From Streptomyces sp. RKND-216 (GTDB lineage Bacteria; Actinomycetota; Actinomycetes; Streptomycetales; Streptomycetaceae): a DNA stretch of 64,000 nucleotides. Positions within the stretch are counted from its first letter, which is position 1; each line of letters begins with the position of its first letter. This document shows positions 9,542-19,103 of the stretch, piece after piece. Location of the stretch: positions 3,553,501 through 3,617,500 of the forward strand of contig NZ_SSBQ01000002.1 of NCBI RefSeq assembly GCF_004795255.1, written 5' to 3'. The translations under genes were made by a program, and so were the position numbers. The notes beneath the pieces were generated by a model. It saw nothing but the letters and a program-made list of their open reading frames with translations, was not told where the DNA came from and ran no database searches.

Positions 9542-9673
9542 AGGTGGGGGCGGTGAGGCGTTCACGAGGCCGAGCCGGAACGGCGCCTTCCAGTAAGGTG
9601 TGGGCCCACAACGGTCCCTTCGCATCGAGGGATTGGGCCGTGCGGCTCGAAGGCCGCCCCGGGGGAGTGACGC

Positions 9674-10671
9674 ATGCTGGGTCAGCTGGGCCTCGGACCC
9701 GACGAGGAGACGGTCTACCGCGCGATGCTCGGCGGTCAGGGCAAGGGCCCGGCGGGCCTCGCGGAGCAACTGGGCTGGGCCGACGGACGCGTCCTGGCGG
9801 CGCTGGACCGGCTGGCCGCCCTGGCCCTGCTCCGTCCGTCACCGGACGGCGGCGCGGGACGGGCCGTCGACCCGGAAATCGGGCTCACCTCCCTGCTGAT
9901 GAACCAGGAGGCCGAACTCCTGGAGCACCAGCGGCAGATCAGCATCAGCAGAGTCGCCGTGCACCGCATGCTCGCCGATCTCCGCGCCACCGGCGACCCC
10001 CACACCGCCACCGAGGTGTAGAAGCTCACCTCCCCGGACCGCATCCAGTCCCGGATCGAGTGCCTGGCCGGAACCTGCGTCACCGAGATCGCGGCCTTCG
10101 TCACCGGAGGCGAGCAGCAGGAGCGGTACCTCGCGGCGGCCCGGCCGCTGGATGCGGCGGCCCTGGAGCGCGGCGTACGGCTGCGGTACGTCTTCCTCGA
10201 CGACTGCCGCAACCGCCCCGACGTCCGGGAGTACGTGACGTGGCTGGGCGAACGGGGCGGCCTGGCACGTACCGTGCCGCGGCTGCCGACGCCGACGCTG
10301 CTCTACGACAGGGCCACGGCGCTCGTGCCGGTCGACCCGGCGGCGGCCGACCGCGGCGCCCTCGTGCTGCACGGCACCGGCGCGGTCGCGGCGCTGCTGG
10401 CGCTCTTCGGCCAGATGTGGCGGCAGGCCGGCCCGTTCACCCTGCCCCGGACGCGCGGCGGAGGCCGGGACGGCGATCCGCCGACCCCCAGGAGCGGGCG
10501 GTGCTCGACCTGCTCACCGAGGGGATGACCGACGAGGCCGTCGCACGGCAGCTCGGAGTGTCCGTGCGCACCACCCGGCGCATCACCGCGGAGCTGATGC
10601 AGCGCCTGGGCGCCCGCAGCCGCTTCGAGGCGGGCGTGCTGGCGGCGGGCAGGGGCTGGGTCAAGCCGTAG
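9674..10671 (+). pseudogene. Decayed TrmB/LuxR-type HTH regulator
   Basis: The reading frame begins at ATG 9674 with an N-terminal winged-helix (TrmB-like) domain: LGLGPDEETVYRAML, then AEQLGWADGRVLAALDRL. It stops at TAG 10019-10021. The same frame continues with clear family sequence (KLTSPDRIQSRIE onward, LRYVFLDD) to about 10450. The LuxR-type C-terminal HTH (DPQERAVLDLLTEGMTDEAV) then appears in a different frame and ends at 10671. One nonsense change (GAG or similar to TAG) and one frameshift near 10445-10490 therefore break a gene of about 330 codons. Streptomyces genomes carry many paralogues of this architecture. Sequencing error is the alternative explanation. Confidence 0.8.
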
Positions 10672-10864: not shown

Positions 10865-13800
10865 ATGGGCTACACGCTGCCCGACTGGGTGGACGAGATT
10901 CTCGAGTTCATCGGGATCAACTTCCCGAATGTCGACGAGGACGACTACCGCGAGATGGCGGACGCCCTGCGGGAGTTCGCCGACCGCTTCGAGACCCACG
11001 GCGGTGACGCGCATCAGGCGGTCAGCCGGGTGCTGTCCTCCAGCGAGGGCTGGGCGGTGGACTCGCTCCAGGACCACTGGGGGAAGGTCAAGTCCTCACA
11101 TCTCGATCAAGTGCCCGCGGTGGCCCGGTTGTTCGCGACGGCCTGCGACACGGTCGCGGTGATCATCGAAGGGCTGAAACGCAAGGCGGAGATCGAGCTG
11201 GGGTACATGGCCGCCTCGCTCGGTATCTCGGTGGGGCTGGCGTTCGTCACGGGCGGTCTGTCGGCGTTCATCGGCGCGGCGCAGATGGCGGCGATGCGGG
11301 AGCTGATCCGGCGCCTGATCAGGGAGGCGCAGGAGGAGATCGTCGACCGGCTGATCGCGGAGGTGACCGAACCGGTCACGAACAAGCTGACGGCGATGAC
11401 GGAGGACATGATCCTCGACATCGCGGAGGACGCGATCGCGCTGCCGCCCGGCGGAGGCGGAGGCGCGGACTCGGGTGGCGGAGGTGAGGAGGGCGGCCCG
11501 TCGGGGATGAACCTCAACTCGGCCGGCTCGGGCGGTTCCGGCGGTGGCGGTGGCCGCATGAAGATCGACACCGACGAGTTCGACAACGGCGCGAAGAAGA
11601 TGTCCGGTCACGCCAAGGACCTGGACAGCAACTCCCTCGCCTCGCTGCGGCGGGCGCAGAACGCGTTCGGCCGCACGAAGGGGCGGGACCCCTTCACCCA
11701 GGTCTTCGAGTCGATGCTGAGCGGAGCGTTCAGCGGCACCGAGAAGGCGGCGAAGAAGGTCATCAAGCACGTCAAGGACGACGTGCCCAACGGCATCACC
11801 GCGATGTCGCGCAACCACAAGCGCAACGAGCAGAACGTCGCCGACTCCCTCAAGGCGATCGACCCCAAGGCCGACGGCAGGAGCCCCGGCGGCGTCACCC
11901 CCATGCGTCCCCAGGGTCGCAACGTCCCCGGCACGAACGGCAAGCCACCCTCCCCGGAGCTGTCCCAGAAGGCGCGCCCCGACGAGGCGAAGTGCAAGAA
12001 CGGCGACCCGATCGACATGGCGACGGGACAGATGCTCCAGTCGCAGACCGACCTGGTCCTGCCCGGCGTGCTGCCCCTGGCGATCGAGCGCACCCACCTC
12101 TCCGGTTACGCCCACGGGCGCTTCTTCGGCCCGTCCTGGGCTTCCTCGCTCGATGAACGCCTCGAACTCACCGGCGAGCGAGGGCAGCTCTGGTGGCACC
12201 GGGTCGACGGCTCCTCCCTGCAGTACGACCATGCTCCCGACCTGATCGGAGAGCAGGTTCTGCCGCGCGAGGGCCGCCGCATTTCGCTGACCTGCGTGCA
12301 GGGCTCCAGCGCCTGGGACCTGGCGGTGACCGACCCGCGTACCGGCCTGACCCGCCGTTTCCTGCCCGCGCCCGAGACGGACGGCGTGTGGTGGCTGACC
12401 GAGATCGAGGACCGCAACGGCAATGGCATCAGCATCGACCGCGACGACGACGGCACGCCGACGGCCGTGCGGCACGACGCGGGCTACCACGTCGAGGTGT
12501 CGTGCGAGGACGGCCTCGTCGGCGGCATCGCGCTGCGCACCCCGGACGGCCCGACGCAGGTCATGCGGTACGGCTACGACGGCGACCGCAACCTCACCGA
12601 CGTCGTCAACTCCTCCGGCCTGCCACTGCGCTTCGGCTATGACGACCAGCACCGCATCACGTCGTGGACCGACCGCAACGACTCCACCTACCAGTACGTC
12701 TACGACGAGCGCGGCCGGGTGGCCCGGACCGTCGGCCCGGAGGGCTTTCTCTCCTCCCAGGTGCACTACGACGCAGAGAACCGCACCACCCGCTACACGG
12801 ATTCCACGGGCGCCGTCACCACCTACCACCTGAACCACCTGGGTCAGGTCGTCGCCGAGACGGACCCCCTGGGCCACACTGTCCACAGCGAGTGGGACCG
12901 GCACGACAACCTGATCTCCCGCACCGACCCGCTCGGCAACACGACGACCTTCACCTACGACGACGCGGACAACCTCACGGCCGTCGACCGCCCCGACGGC
13001 ACGCGCGTCACCACGGAGTACAACCGTCTCCACCTCCCCACGGAGGTCACCGCCCCGGGCGGTGCGGTGTGGCGCCAGGAGTACGACGGACGCGGCAACC
13101 GCACAGCCGTGACCGCGCCCGACGGCGCGACCACGCGGTTCACGCACGACTCCGCCGGGGCTGTCAACGCGATCACCGACGCCCTCGGCGCCGAGACGCG
13201 CGTCACCAGCAACCCGGCGGGTCTCCCGCTGACCCTCACCGACCCTCTCGGAGCCGAAACCGTCTGCGTGCGCGACGCCTTCGGCCGCCCGGTCGCCGTC
13301 ACGGATGCGACGGGCGCGACCACACGCATGGAATGGACGGTCGAGGGCAAACCCTCGCGGCGCATCGCCCCGGACGGCACGGAGGAGACCTGGACCTGGG
13401 ACGGCGAGGGCAACTGCCTGACCCACACCGACCCGGCCGGCGGCCGTTCCGCCTTCACCTACACACACTTCGACCAACTCGTCAGCCGTGCCACGCCCGA
13501 TGGAGCGAGCTACGCCTTCGCGTACGACACCGAGCTGCGGCTGACGCAGGTCACGAACCCCTACGGCCTCACCTGGGACTACACCTACGACCGTGCGGGC
13601 AACCTCGTCGCGGAGTCCGACTTCGACGGTCGGCAGGTCTCCTACGACCACGACGCCGCCGGGCGTCTGATCGCGCGCACCACACCTCTCGGCGACACCT
13701 TCACCTACACCCACGACGCCGTGGGGCGTACGGTCACCAAGTCCGTCGGGGAGGCGGAGACCCGCTACACGTACGACGAGGCGGGCCATCTTCTGCACGT

Positions 13801-15439
13801 CTCCTCGCCCGCGTCCACGCTGGACCTCCGCTACGACCCGGTCGGACGGCTCGTGGCCGAGACGGTCGACGGCCGCACCACCCACTACACCTACGACCGG
13901 CTCGGGCGCCGCGCGACGCGGACCACGCCCACCGGCGCGGTCAGCACCTTCACCCACGACCTCGCGGGCAACCGCACCTCGCTGTCGGCGGACGGGCACA
14001 CGCTCGCCTTCGCGCACGACGCGCTGGGCCGGGAGACCGAGCGGGCCTTCGGTGACTCCGTCACCCTCCACAGCGGATGGGACCCGCTGGGCCGGCTCAT
14101 ACGCCAGGAGCTCGTGGCCGACACCCGCCCGCAGCGGGCCCGCCACTACTCCTACCGGGCCGACAGCCACCTCACTTCCGTCACCGACGAGGTCACCGGC
14201 GCCGTCCAGCACATGGACCTGGACCCCGTCGGCCGCCCGCTCACCGTTACCGCGGACGGCTGGTCCGAGACCTACGCCTACGACCGGGCCGGCAACCAGA
14301 CGCAAGCCGAGTGGCCCGACCAGGCCGGCCGGACCGCGGCACGCGGGGAGCGCAACTACGAGGGCACGCGCATCGTCTCCGCAGGCGGCGTGCGGTACGA
14401 GCACGACGACGCCGGCCGCATGACCCTGCGGCAGAAGACCCGTCTGTCCAGGAAGCCCGACACCTGGCGCTACCACTGGGACGCCGAAGACCGCCTCACC
14501 GCGTGCACCACGCCGGACGGCACCCGCTGGACCTACACCTACGACCCACTGGGCCGCCGCACCGCCAAGCACCGCCTCGGGCCGGACGGCGAGCCGGCCG
14601 AGACCGTCCACTTCACGTGGGACGGCACGCGCCTCGCCGAACAGTACGACTCCACCACCGGGGTCACCCTGACCTGGGACCACGAAGGTCACCGGCCGCT
14701 GACCCAGTACGAGCGCAAGCACCTCACGCAGGAGCAGGTCGACTCACGCTTCTTCGCCATCGTCACCGACCTGGTCGGCACCCCGACGGAGTTGGTCGAC
14801 GAGACCGGTGGCATCGCCTGGCACACCCGCTCCACCCTGTGGGGCACCACCACGTGGAACGCCGACGCCACGGCGTACACCCCGCTCCGCTTCCCCGGCC
14901 AGTACGCCGACCCGGAAACCGGCCTCCACTACAACTACTTCCGCCACTACGACCCCGACACCGCCCGCTATACGGCTCGAGACCCGCTCGGCCTTTGGCC
15001 GTCGCCCAATGCTGCGACTTACCCTCACAACCCGTATGCACGAACCGATCCTCTTGGTCTCATGAGTTGTGACGAGACTGAGCAGGTGTCCGGTGACGAG
15101 ATCGGTTCGCTCTTCCACTACACGAATGAGAAGGGATACGAAGGCATAGTCGGTAGCGAAGAGCTGTGGGCTTCCACCAAGGAGCACAACCCCAAGGATG
15201 CTCGATTCGGCGATGGTCAGTATCTTTCTGACATCGAGCCTCACACGAAGACCGCCGGCCAGTTGTCGTACGCTTTCCTGCGCGTGCCATGGGCGGGGCA
15301 GAAGTTCACACACTTCATCGAGGTCGATGTCCGAGGGCTTGAGCTTCTGCGTTCCGTTGACAGGCCGGATGTCTTTGTGGCGCCTGGGCAGGGGGCGCTA
15401 GACTTGAGTGGACGCATTCTCCAGCATGGGAAGAACTGA
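10865..15439 (+). CDS. RHS-repeat polymorphic toxin with HYD1-type ADP-ribosyltransferase tip
   Basis: Encodes 1524 residues without a signal peptide. Residues 1-190 are helical, ESX/LXG-like, with a Gly/Ala hydrophobic patch. A Gly/Ser linker (about 195-235) and a second helical module follow. A pre-RHS DUF6531-like segment (GDPIDMATGQM, near 380) comes next, then some 900 residues of YD/RHS repeats of the type YDxxGxxxxxT. The core closes with RDPLGL at 1372 and a second DPLGL at 1395. The last 125 residues are a variable tip with LFHYTNEKGYEGI and FGDGQYLSD, matching the HYD1-signature ART toxin family by eye. From about codon 1380 the sequence becomes visibly A/T-richer, as expected of an exchanged toxin tip. 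Export, perhaps by type VII secretion, is inferred. Confidence 0.85.
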   Translation: MGYTLPDWVDEILEFIGINFPNVDEDDYREMADALREFADRFETHGGDAHQAVSRVLSSSEGWAVDSLQDHWGKVKSSHLDQVPAVARLFATACDTVAVIIEGLKRKAEIELGYMAASLGISVGLAFVTGGLSAFIGAAQMAAMRELIRRLIREAQEEIVDRLIAEVTEPVTNKLTAMTEDMILDIAEDAIALPPGGGGGADSGGGGEEGGPSGMNLNSAGSGGSGGGGGRMKIDTDEFDNGAKKMSGHAKDLDSNSLASLRRAQNAFGRTKGRDPFTQVFESMLSGAFSGTEKAAKKVIKHVKDDVPNGITAMSRNHKRNEQNVADSLKAIDPKADGRSPGGVTPMRPQGRNVPGTNGKPPSPELSQKARPDEAKCKNGDPIDMATGQMLQSQTDLVLPGVLPLAIERTHLSGYAHGRFFGPSWASSLDERLELTGERGQLWWHRVDGSSLQYDHAPDLIGEQVLPREGRRISLTCVQGSSAWDLAVTDPRTGLTRRFLPAPETDGVWWLTEIEDRNGNGISIDRDDDGTPTAVRHDAGYHVEVSCEDGLVGGIALRTPDGPTQVMRYGYDGDRNLTDVVNSSGLPLRFGYDDQHRITSWTDRNDSTYQYVYDERGRVARTVGPEGFLSSQVHYDAENRTTRYTDSTGAVTTYHLNHLGQVVAETDPLGHTVHSEWDRHDNLISRTDPLGNTTTFTYDDADNLTAVDRPDGTRVTTEYNRLHLPTEVTAPGGAVWRQEYDGRGNRTAVTAPDGATTRFTHDSAGAVNAITDALGAETRVTSNPAGLPLTLTDPLGAETVCVRDAFGRPVAVTDATGATTRMEWTVEGKPSRRIAPDGTEETWTWDGEGNCLTHTDPAGGRSAFTYTHFDQLVSRATPDGASYAFAYDTELRLTQVTNPYGLTWDYTYDRAGNLVAESDFDGRQVSYDHDAAGRLIARTTPLGDTFTYTHDAVGRTVTKSVGEAETRYTYDEAGHLLHVSSPASTLDLRYDPVGRLVAETVDGRTTHYTYDRLGRRATRTTPTGAVSTFTHDLAGNRTSLSADGHTLAFAHDALGRETERAFGDSVTLHSGWDPLGRLIRQELVADTRPQRARHYSYRADSHLTSVTDEVTGAVQHMDLDPVGRPLTVTADGWSETYAYDRAGNQTQAEWPDQAGRTAARGERNYEGTRIVSAGGVRYEHDDAGRMTLRQKTRLSRKPDTWRYHWDAEDRLTACTTPDGTRWTYTYDPLGRRTAKHRLGPDGEPAETVHFTWDGTRLAEQYDSTTGVTLTWDHEGHRPLTQYERKHLTQEQVDSRFFAIVTDLVGTPTELVDETGGIAWHTRSTLWGTTTWNADATAYTPLRFPGQYADPETGLHYNYFRHYDPDTARYTARDPLGLWPSPNAATYPHNPYARTDPLGLMSCDETEQVSGDEIGSLFHYTNEKGYEGIVGSEELWASTKEHNPKDARFGDGQYLSDIEPHTKTAGQLSYAFLRVPWAGQKFTHFIEVDVRGLELLRSVDRPDVFVAPGQGALDLSGRILQHGKN

Positions 15440-15440
15440 C

Positions 15441-15731
15441 GTGGATTACTGGAAGGTCGAGTGGAAGCACGACTTCCAAGAGGAGCCGACCACCTTCTAC
15501 AGTGAGATCGGGGAAGATGGCTATGAGGTCAGAAAGGTTCAGAGGTTCCGAGACGGGCGGCTCGTAAAAGCTGATGCTCAGCATGAATCGGGTGAAGTCG
15601 GACTAAGTGAGATCCCGGTAGGCCGGATCGAAGACGTTAAGGCGCAGCCGGATTTTTCGGCCTTCACCATCTCATTCGATGAGTTTCAAGTGGTTTGGTT
15701 GAAAGCCCGGTGGGGTCGGAGTGCCTTGTGA
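15441..15731 (+). CDS. Putative immunity protein (DUF6881-like)
   Basis: Encodes 96 acidic residues. The GTG at 15441, one base after the toxin stop and preceded by GGGAAG, fits the family start VDYWKVEW; an in-frame ATG at 15426 would overlap the toxin by 14 bases. Visible motifs are YWKVEWKHDF, FYSEIGEDGYEVRKV, FRDG and the C-terminal EIPV....FSAFTISFDEFQVVW. These recall the small DUF6881 proteins found beside Streptomyces toxins. Low GC matches the toxin tip, so tip and immunity gene probably moved together. Its job would be to neutralise the ADP-ribosyltransferase in the producing cell; this is inferred from position. Confidence 0.75.
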   Translation: MDYWKVEWKHDFQEEPTTFYSEIGEDGYEVRKVQRFRDGRLVKADAQHESGEVGLSEIPVGRIEDVKAQPDFSAFTISFDEFQVVWLKARWGRSAL

Positions 15732-15739
15732 GCTCGCAC

Positions 15740-15854
15740 CGGCTTCTGTGTCGCCGCGGCCGGGGACCGAGGCAGCGAAGTAGAAGCGGTTCGCCAGCTT
15801 GAACGCCAAGACCGCCCGGGCATGGTCAGCATGAAGCCGTTTCAGCTCGGGCAT
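15740..15854 (-). pseudogene. 5' remnant of a GNAT acetyltransferase gene
   Basis: From ATG 15854 on the minus strand the first 35 or so codons (MPELKRLHADHARAVLAFKL, then ANRFYFAASVPGRGD) read like the start of a GNAT acetyltransferase, matching E/xLRxLxxDHAxAVLAFExANRxYFAA from memory. The family resemblance then ends, and the frame runs on meaninglessly until 15672, inside the immunity gene. The rest of the gene is missing. This suggests that arrival or exchange of the toxin-immunity end deleted it. Confidence 0.6.
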
Positions 15855-15994
15855 CGCAAGACTCTATCCACGGGGTGTGCCGGGTTCACCTGAGATTCTG
15901 CCAGCGGCAGACAGGCCGCAGAGCTTTGCGAAGCCTTCCCGTCGACCGGGCCCTGGTACGTGGTGGTCGCCCTTCGGTGGATCGGGCTCTTGGG

Positions 15995-16165
15995 CCAGCG
16001 GAGAGCGGTGAGGAAGGTGTGCCACGCGGTGGGCGGGAAGAGGAGTGTTCCCGCTGTGGGGGACTTGGAGTCGCGGACGGGGATGTGGGTGGGGTGGCCG
16101 GTGGCGACCCCTACGCAGTTGGCGTCGCCGCCGGCGGTCCGTTCCGCCGGTGCTTCCTCGGACAC
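15995..16165 (-). pseudogene. Degenerate DUF397 gene copy
   Basis: The minus strand encodes NCVGVATGHPTHIPVRDSKS, followed by TAGTLLFPPTAWHTFLTALR. This is a clear DUF397 C-terminal half, close to the two intact copies at 17967 and 18891. The N-terminal WRKSSYS half is absent or out of frame, and the frame runs past the normal end without stopping until 15842. It is therefore a third, decayed copy. The stretch 16166-16314, up to the nos start, holds nothing else I can recognise. Confidence 0.65.
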
Positions 16166-16314
16166 CGGCGGATGTTTCCGGACTTCTGCGTGCCCGGCCG
16201 CGCCCCATTCGCGGTCAGGGCCTTGGAGGCCGCGGGCCAGCCGTTAGCGTGGTGCGGCACGCTTCCGTCGGCCACCGGCGGGGCGGGAGCCGAGATCCGT
16301 CCGCGAGGAGCAGC

Positions 16315-17643
16315 ATGCACGCCGACCCCCCTTTCAGAGGCTTTCCCGCGCAGCGCCTTCCCTCCGGGTGGGAGGCTCCCCCGGTCGCGGCTGCGCCCGC
16401 CTCCTGGGGGCATGCCGAAGGCGGCTTCCCCGGAGGCGGCTTCGCGGGCGGTGGCCACGGCGACCGGCCCGCGAATCCCGGCGGCGGACAGGCCGGGACG
16501 GCCCCGCACACCGGTGCCGAGGGGACGGGAGTGGTGGACAGGGCGGAGGCCGAGGACTTCCTCCGCCTCTTCTACACCGAGCAGCCCGATCAGCCCGTGA
16601 CGTTCGCCCGCAGGCTCTACCAGATCCGCGCGGAGGTGGAGAGCACCGGCACCTACGCCCACACCTTCGAGGAGCTGGCCTTCGGCGCACGCGTCGCCTG
16701 GCGCAACTCGGCCCGCTGCATAGGTCGCCTCTACTGGAACAGTCTCCAGGTCCGCGACCTGCGCCACGTCACGGCACCGGATCACATTTTCGCCGAGCTG
16801 TGCGAGCACCTGCGACTGGCGGCCAACGGCGGCCGCGTGCGCCCGGTGATCTCCGTCTTCGCCCCGGACGCCCCTGGCCGGCCGGGGCCGCGCGTGTGGA
16901 ACGACCAGCTTGTGCGCTACGCGGGGCACCGCCGTTGGGACGGGGGCGTCGACGGGGACCCGGGCTACACCGCGTTCACCGAACAGCTGCGCCGCATGGG
17001 CTGGCAGCCCCAGGGCACCACGCACGACCTGCTGCCGCTGGTGATCGACACACCCGACGACAAGCCCCAGATGTTCGACGTGCCGCGCGAGGTGGTGCTG
17101 GAGATACCGCTCTCGCACCCCGACTACCCGTGGTTCGCCCGACTCGGCCTGCGGTGGTACGCGGTGCCGGCCATCTCCCACATGCGGATGCGGGTCGGCG
17201 GAGTGGACTACGGTCTCGCTCCCTTCAACGGCTGGTACATGGGCACCGAGATCGGGGCCCGCAACTTCGTCGACGCCGACCGGTACGACCTGCTGCCCGT
17301 GGTCGCGCGGGAGATGGGTCTGGACACCCGCAAGGAGTCCTCCCTGTGGAAGGACCGGGCGCTCGTCGAGATCAACGTCGCGGTGCTGCACTCCTTCGAG
17401 ACCGCCGGGGTGAAGATCACCGACCACCACACGGAGTCCCAGCGCTTCCTGACCCACCTCGCCAAGGAGGAGCGCCAGGGACGCACGGTCCCCACCGACT
17501 GGAGCTGGATCGTCCCGCCGCTCTCCGGCGGCGTCACCCCTGTCTTCCACCGCTACTACGACGAGGGCGATCTCCGGCCCAACTTCTACCTCGACCCCTC
17601 CGCGCGCGCCCGCAGCCGAGGCGAGTGCCCCTTCGGGCACTGA
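16315..17643 (+). CDS. nos: Nitric oxide synthase oxygenase
   Basis: Encodes 442 residues. ATG 16315 has GAGGAG at 16305-16310. Bacterial NOS oxygenase oxidises L-arginine to citrulline and NO with haem and a pterin, borrowing electrons from separate reductases. The haem-thiolate motif is WRNSARCIGRLYW with C135. The substrate region WYMGTEIGARNF carries the arginine-binding Glu, and the pterin/dimer region reads DWSWIVPPLSGG. There is no reductase domain, as usual in bacteria. Residues 1-75 are a Gly/Pro/Ala-rich extension not found in Bacillus enzymes, so translation could begin later. No thaxtomin or other biosynthetic genes are nearby, so its role is more likely signalling or stress protection than nitration of a product. 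Confidence 0.92.
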   Translation: MHADPPFRGFPAQRLPSGWEAPPVAAAPASWGHAEGGFPGGGFAGGGHGDRPANPGGGQAGTAPHTGAEGTGVVDRAEAEDFLRLFYTEQPDQPVTFARRLYQIRAEVESTGTYAHTFEELAFGARVAWRNSARCIGRLYWNSLQVRDLRHVTAPDHIFAELCEHLRLAANGGRVRPVISVFAPDAPGRPGPRVWNDQLVRYAGHRRWDGGVDGDPGYTAFTEQLRRMGWQPQGTTHDLLPLVIDTPDDKPQMFDVPREVVLEIPLSHPDYPWFARLGLRWYAVPAISHMRMRVGGVDYGLAPFNGWYMGTEIGARNFVDADRYDLLPVVAREMGLDTRKESSLWKDRALVEINVAVLHSFETAGVKITDHHTESQRFLTHLAKEERQGRTVPTDWSWIVPPLSGGVTPVFHRYYDEGDLRPNFYLDPSARARSRGECPFGH

Positions 17644-18890: not shown

Positions 18891-19103
18891 TCAGCGGAGG
18901 GTGGTGAGGAACGCCTGCCAGGCGGGGGCGGGGAAGAGGAGGGTTCCCGTGGCGGGGGACTTGGAGTCGCGGACGGGGATGTGGGTGGGGTGGCCGTCGG
19001 CGACCTCGACGCAGTCGCCGCCGTCCTGGTTGCTGTAGCTCGACTTCCGCCAGTGGAGGTTCGGCGCGAGGTCGGCGCTGCGGGGGTCACGCATCGGGGA
19101 CAT
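18891..19103 (-). CDS. DUF397 protein (copy 2), partner of XRE regulator
   Basis: Encodes 70 residues with WRKSSYS, DCVEVADGHP, IPVRDSKSP and FPAPAWQAFLTTLR. The start overlaps the end of the XRE gene (stop at 19087) by 17 bases, or by 8 if the second Met is used, so the two are translationally coupled. Such XRE/DUF397 pairs act as regulator and modulator, and have been likened to toxin-antitoxin systems. Its stop lies three bases before the methyltransferase start. Confidence 0.88.
   Translation of the reverse strand: MSPMRDPRSADLAPNLHWRKSSYSNQDGGDCVEVADGHPTHIPVRDSKSPATGTLLFPAPAWQAFLTTLR

Follow-up and report, generated by a model that had tools for sequence, protein, structure and literature searches.

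The window analyzed in this study is the whole stretch of 64,000 nucleotides from Streptomyces sp. RKND-216. It carries a gene for an RHS polymorphic toxin with a Tox-ART-HYD1 tip (ART, ADP-ribosyltransferase), and a DUF6881 gene directly behind it. The computed domain order was WXG100_2, RHS shell, two DPLGL motifs, ART-like HYD1 tip and DUF6881 gene. Tip and DUF6881 gene very probably form an exchangeable toxin-immunity cassette on an RHS carrier of the type VII secretion system (T7SS) type; this judgment applies to the domain architecture, to the roles as toxin and antidote, and to tip exchange. The cassette consisted of two features:

15062..15436, + strand: Tox-ART-HYD1 toxin tip, residues 1400–1524 of the RHS protein (PF15633; AlphaFold2; PDB fold matches; conserved H1418, Y1453, E1486)
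15441..15731, + strand: DUF6881 protein, 96 amino acids, presumed immunity protein of the Imm-My6CBD type (PF21812, E 1e-29)

Toxin Tip

The original prediction, made from the sequence alone, described a HYD1-type ADP-ribosyltransferase pattern in the tip and proposed a profile search and structure prediction, both of which agreed with it. PF15633 matched residues 1416–1518 with an E-value of 4.6e-25 in the whole protein. The tip scored 88.5 bits against a cut-off of 25 and covered the full profile (1–97 of 97). The motifs LFHYTNEKGYEG and FGDGQYLSD were both present in the translation. The table of PMC3482391 gives a conserved H, [RK], [FY] and [DE] for Tox-ART-HYD1; the tip had all four, with assignment to the table columns being our own reading. 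Among 58 tips, H1418 and Y1453 were conserved in all, and R1447 and E1486 in 57 each. The AlphaFold2 model of the tip had a predicted local distance difference test (pLDDT) score of 90.9, and its ART-like matches in the PDB point to an ADP-ribosyltransferase fold. PDB sequence searches with the tip, single or profile, gave no credible match.

Tre23, a characterized HYD1 toxin of PF15633, modifies 23S rRNA according to PMC8636562 and PMC9990079. By this analogy, 23S rRNA may be the target of the tip, with a likelihood somewhat short of even, this being the least secure part of the proposed mechanism. It is about as likely that the tip modifies another RNA, DNA or a protein; its fold matches include enzymes that act on RNA, DNA and protein. 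The HYD1 clade also includes YarT, which comes from work on NADAR antitoxins, enzymes that strip ADP-ribose from guanine (PMC11125620). Nothing direct opposes such another target; the only target stated for a HYD1 toxin in these sources is 23S rRNA, for Tre23. The ART-like tip is rather unlikely to be an NAD(P)+ glycohydrolase, which would deplete NAD and leave no mark on a target. Its placement in PF15633, which is the family of Tre23, described as an RNA ADP-ribosyltransferase, and the H-Y-E set conserved in tip homologues argue against this reading.

Pairing of DUF6881 with HYD1 Tips

The DUF6881 gene had a GTG start at 15441, one base after the toxin stop, and the PF21812 match bore out the reported resemblance of this adjacent 96-residue protein to DUF6881. 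The genus was searched in 392 genomes, RKND-216 included. PF15633 matches were found in 19 of the 392 and PF21812 matches in 23. The two were direct same-strand neighbors in 10 of the 19 PF15633 genomes, and the other nine were without any PF21812 match. A profile of close tips found tips in 11 of the 19 genomes and in 3 of the 80 core relatives described below. Of the 14 tips matched by this profile, 13, among them that of the window, had DUF6881 next downstream, with a gap within 5 bases in 12 and an overlap in one (L018). Such partnership with Tox-ART-HYD1 is a listed feature of Imm-My6CBD.

In the exception (G219), a neighbor of 90 amino acids showed marginal likeness to the DUF6881 profile (8.9 bits). 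The other eight PF15633 genomes had different neighbors, which were compared by eye. One kind of small protein followed the tips of G311, G236 and G046, and a second kind those of G281, G377, G011 and G123, with G149 alike in outline. A second HYD1 tip class with an RMRHYTN motif was observed in L015, L016 and L017, and the small protein behind it could represent an immunity family not yet named. In L020, L021, L022 and L024, a conserved protein came after the tip of a third, weak HYD1-like class (IRHYTDK). Five proteins lacked any Pfam match at E up to 1, namely three neighbors of other HYD1 classes and two open reading frames of locus L113 described below; the small protein of L015 and the conserved protein of L022 gave no Pfam match.

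Exchange of Tips among Carriers

A genome scan found 306 relatives. The best 80, all Streptomyces, were kept; their related cores were 59–77% identical over residues 1000–1372. The HYD1 tip was found on three of these best 80 of 306 (L056, L085, L095). Tips were grouped by blastp with the shared linker excluded; L066, whose tip has 3 residues, was omitted. The tips of the other 79 core relatives and that of the window gave 33 groups in all, though distant members of one family may be split; the window's group had four members. L034 carried another tip despite identities of 74% in the core and 65% in the N-terminus, as did G017 (L139) despite 65% and 61%, respectively. Among three carriers from a search of 41 relatives, G017 and G015 had other tips; for G004, no RHS core match was found within the stretch taken. 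The comparison of relatives, which covered other species, gave the result anticipated in the original prediction: different tips on related cores, with identical tips in all relatives not seen.

With the tip as the query, 57 proteins were found. The best by E-value was Nocardia P0003, with a tip 74% and a core 38% identical. P0058 had the closest core (80%) among the 57 tip homologues, yet its tip was 63% identical. The tip and core trees (54/58 proteins) rejected each other with log-likelihood differences of 262 and 1553, for which the approximately unbiased test p-values are rough because only 1000 replicates were used, and 10 of 51 splits were shared. P0035, P0041, P0044 and P0058 were omitted from the trees owing to short matches, so P0058, the closest carrier, stands outside the tree test. 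Tip identity and core identity gave a Spearman correlation of 0.57 (55 proteins). Since the two still correlate, exchange is frequent but not free.

Exchange of tips among carriers is thus well supported by sequence comparison, because of tip diversity and tree conflict and not because of composition alone. Of the original statement that composition and position together indicate a swapped cassette, the exchange was retained on these grounds, and composition as its proof was given up.

Composition Step

The GC content at third codon positions (GC3) was 0.932 for residues 1–380, 0.929 for 381–1372, 0.671 for 1373–1524 and 0.646 for the DUF6881 gene. The reported switch after RDPLGL (residues 1372–1377, window 14978–14995), running through the tip and the next gene, was reproduced, and GC3 across the junction was uneven. 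Placed at codon 1368, shortly ahead of the first DPLGL motif, the best GC3 change point raised the log-likelihood by 41.4, and 200 permutations reached at most 7.1. Among 130-codon segments before codon 1372, the lowest GC3 was 0.885, against 0.677 in the tip. The tip GC3 expected from the core's own codon usage was 0.92.

Tip GC3 was lower than core GC3 in 77 of 79 measurable core relatives; the means in these 79 were 0.71 for the tip, 0.88 for the core and 0.78 for the segment running from one DPLGL motif to the next. Where the core of an HYD1 locus could be measured, the tip was below core GC3 in 11 of 11 cases, and 10 of these were paired with DUF6881. Low GC3 is a general property of such RHS tips and no date stamp. 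Therefore, it neither proves nor dates a swap, and low GC as proof of recent transfer was ruled out. The same counts (77/79 and 11/11) would suit a different explanation, that constraint on toxin domains or their expression level accounts for the low GC3 and that the tip has long been on its carrier. This explanation is unlikely: the unequal tip and core identities of P0058 and Nocardia P0003 and the conflicting trees speak against it. These comparisons demonstrate exchange within the family but do not date the window's own.

Orphan DUF6881 Genes and Tip Stubs

Thirteen of the 23 genomes with DUF6881 had no PF15633 match, and four of them (G271, G022, G043, G181) were inspected closely. Directly before DUF6881, a stub of the last 20 HYD1-tip residues was found in G022 and of the last 15 in G181 (tblastn E 9e-4 and 4e-4, respectively). 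No tip stub was found before DUF6881 in G271 and G043. L059 (S. blattellae) and G022 share the same genes and were counted as one case. In L059, the 120 bases just before DUF6881 scored 66, against a maximum of 39 in 200 shuffles; scoring of the whole L059 region for a tip remnant gave 35–37, below the shuffle maximum of 46. The DUF6881 gene of L059/G022 lay about 2.4 kb beyond an RHS gene now bearing another tip. In the same 120-base test, the scores of L037, L113, L031 and L029 were reached by 163, 5, 42 and 61 of 200 shuffles, respectively, which indicated no stub, with L113 borderline. Among the 80 core relatives, L037 carried a DUF6881 orphan that lacked a stub, whereas L064 and L109 had partial matches. 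The stub orphans are traces of tip loss, in which antidote genes were left behind with a toxin remnant.

The 13 genomes without PF15633 would also be expected if DUF6881 were an unrelated passenger and not an antidote. A passenger is highly improbable, given the DUF6881 genes behind 13 of 14 profile-matching tips at the short gaps above, the two orphan copies that retain a tip stub just upstream, and the prediction of HYD1 partners as Imm-My6CBD, whose listed features DUF6881 has.

In the 13 pairs and in both stubs, a purine-rich stretch began 9–17 bases ahead of the inferred start of DUF6881, using a permissive motif and no shuffle control. In most cases it lay within the final codons of the tip, which may be why a stub is kept after tip loss.

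At L145 2676–3104 (G181:C18), DUF6881 with the 15-residue HYD1 stub lay between ordinary chromosomal genes; the 4.5 kb covered there showed no RHS-like open reading frame bearing a DPLGL or VHNC motif. The RKND-216 genome contained a second DUF6881 (L113), 48% identical over 86 amino acids and without a clear stub. Two displaced tips beginning LAGATPVLVHNC were observed together with this second DUF6881 at L113 1864–3601 (− strand; G000:C2:2350000–2369900), about 9 kb beyond a HINT-type RHS gene of 2293 amino acids (L113 12416–19297, − strand). In our own reading, the LAGATPVLVHNC start is a post-HINT junction. The displaced tips were 75% and 59% identical to tips on the DPLGL-type carriers L035 and L043. 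Because of this resemblance, tips seem to cross between carrier types.

Carrier Gene and Neighboring Genes

The carrier contained the following features, all on the + strand:

10865..15439: RHS polymorphic toxin gene, 1524 amino acids (open reading frame; 16 RHS_repeat stretches, PF05593, E 2.4e-91; TIGR01643 repeats)
10898..11293: N-terminal WXG100_2 domain, residues 12–143, presumed type VII export module (PF25547, E 4.5e-11)
12002..12226: DUF6531 at the RHS shell start, residues 380–454 (PF20148, E 3.1e-23)
14837..15061: RHS-associated core, residues 1325–1399 (TIGR03696, E 3.9e-18)
14981..14995: first DPLGL motif, residues 1373–1377 (sequence; GC3 change point about 5 codons earlier)
15047..15061: second DPLGL motif, residues 1395–1399 (sequence; 17 residues between the motifs)

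The protein had the YD/RHS repeats, the core ending in DPLGL and the variable tip of RHS polymorphic toxins. In Photorhabdus Rhs1, the catalytic Asp is described in the second DPLGL, with the same 17-residue spacing (PMC8636562). By analogy, aspartyl self-cleavage would occur after L1399 via D1395 in the second DPLGL.

The PF25547 match at the N-terminus scored 43 bits against the Pfam cut-off of 27, which is the WXG100-type N-terminus of T7SS effectors. The N-terminus had been called ESX/LXG-like. The match was to WXG100_2; among Pfam matches of the N-terminus at E up to 1 there was no LXG model, although a missing match is no proof. LXG identity is thus unsupported, and WXG100_2 fits. An EccC gene was found in the same genome (G000:C2:1195588–1197297, 775 bits), consistent with type VII export of the RHS protein.

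Upstream of the RHS gene, window 9544–10671 (+ strand) encodes a LuxR-type regulator (PF00196) that may control it. A DUF397 copy (49 bits, profile 10–55 of 55) adjoined the cassette at window 15842–16165 (− strand). A full-length DUF397 match (profile 1–55) was located at window 18891–19103, beside a DUF5753 regulator. A nitric oxide synthase oxygenase domain (PF02898, E 5e-154) lay downstream of the cassette at window 16045–17643 (+ strand).

Fold of DUF6881

Imm-My6CBD was predicted in 2012 as the antidote of HYD1 toxins (Zhang et al. 2012). The DUF6881 model was alpha+beta, and its four best fold matches were myosin VI cargo-binding domains. E29, R37, F72, F82 and W86 were among the 18 invariant columns of 20 DUF6881 sequences; they supply the conserved E, R, F and W of Imm-My6CBD, the residue assignment being our own reading. 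The myosin VI domain was not listed in a Pfam scan of the 20 DUF6881 members, and PDB sequence searches with the DUF6881 protein, single or profile, gave no credible match. Because of the predicted fold matches, DUF6881 is most likely the Imm-My6CBD antidote.

A tentative and less probable proposal is that DUF6881 grips the HYD1 tip via a short peptide, as myosin VI does with cargo adaptors, and that the tip's last codons hold the ribosome-binding site of the antidote, so that the final 15–20 codons survive tip loss and the antidote persists as an orphan. If true, the peptide grip would lend the 2012 proposal, in which the animal domain came from a bacterial antidote, backing from structure.

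Proposed Mechanism

A type VII system would export the RHS protein, whose shell would cage the tip. Self-cleavage after L1399 would release a toxin of 125 residues. In a rival bacterium, the tip would use NAD+ through H1418, Y1453 and E1486 to ADP-ribosylate an essential target. The likeliest target is an RNA of the translation machinery, by analogy with Tre23 and 23S rRNA. DUF6881 would bind the tip and protect the producer. Tip and antidote move together as a cassette.

Comparison with Known Systems

Tre23-Tri23 of Photorhabdus laumondii Rhs1 has a PF15633 tip directly after the second of two DPLGL motifs 17 residues apart, an RHS shell and an immunity gene in the toxin locus, as described in PMC8636562 and PMC9990079. 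The window has the same arrangement. In these descriptions, the Rhs1 carrier has prePAAR/PAAR and uses type VI secretion, whereas the window's carrier has WXG100_2 and lies in an actinobacterial genome with EccC. The exchangeable Rhs tips of Serratia likewise show one core with different tips and orphan immunity genes downstream (PMC10539506). According to that account, the Serratia system is of type VI, has NADase tips and was tested experimentally, whereas the window's system is known from sequence alone; moreover, in two DUF6881 orphans of the Streptomyces set a short remnant of the lost tip is preserved. T7SS polymorphic toxins share the export domain, the variable C-terminal toxin and the downstream immunity gene, with export presumed for the window.

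The Imm-My6CBD (Imm-MyosinCBD) description of Zhang et al. (2012) gives a Tox-ART-HYD1 partner, an alpha+beta fold and conserved E, R, F and W, all found in DUF6881. The name DUF6881 is not used in that description, and its link to myosin VI was made by sequence search, whereas the link of DUF6881 was made by predicted fold. The T7SS route was already listed for Tox-ART-HYD1 in 2012 (PMC3482391, table). Each element has a known counterpart, and the system therefore belongs to a kind already known. New are the stub orphans and the assignment of DUF6881 to the antidote family predicted earlier. An uncharacterized Pfam family is thereby placed, and its antidote role and the origin from bacteria proposed for the animal domain become testable on a small, confidently modeled protein pair.
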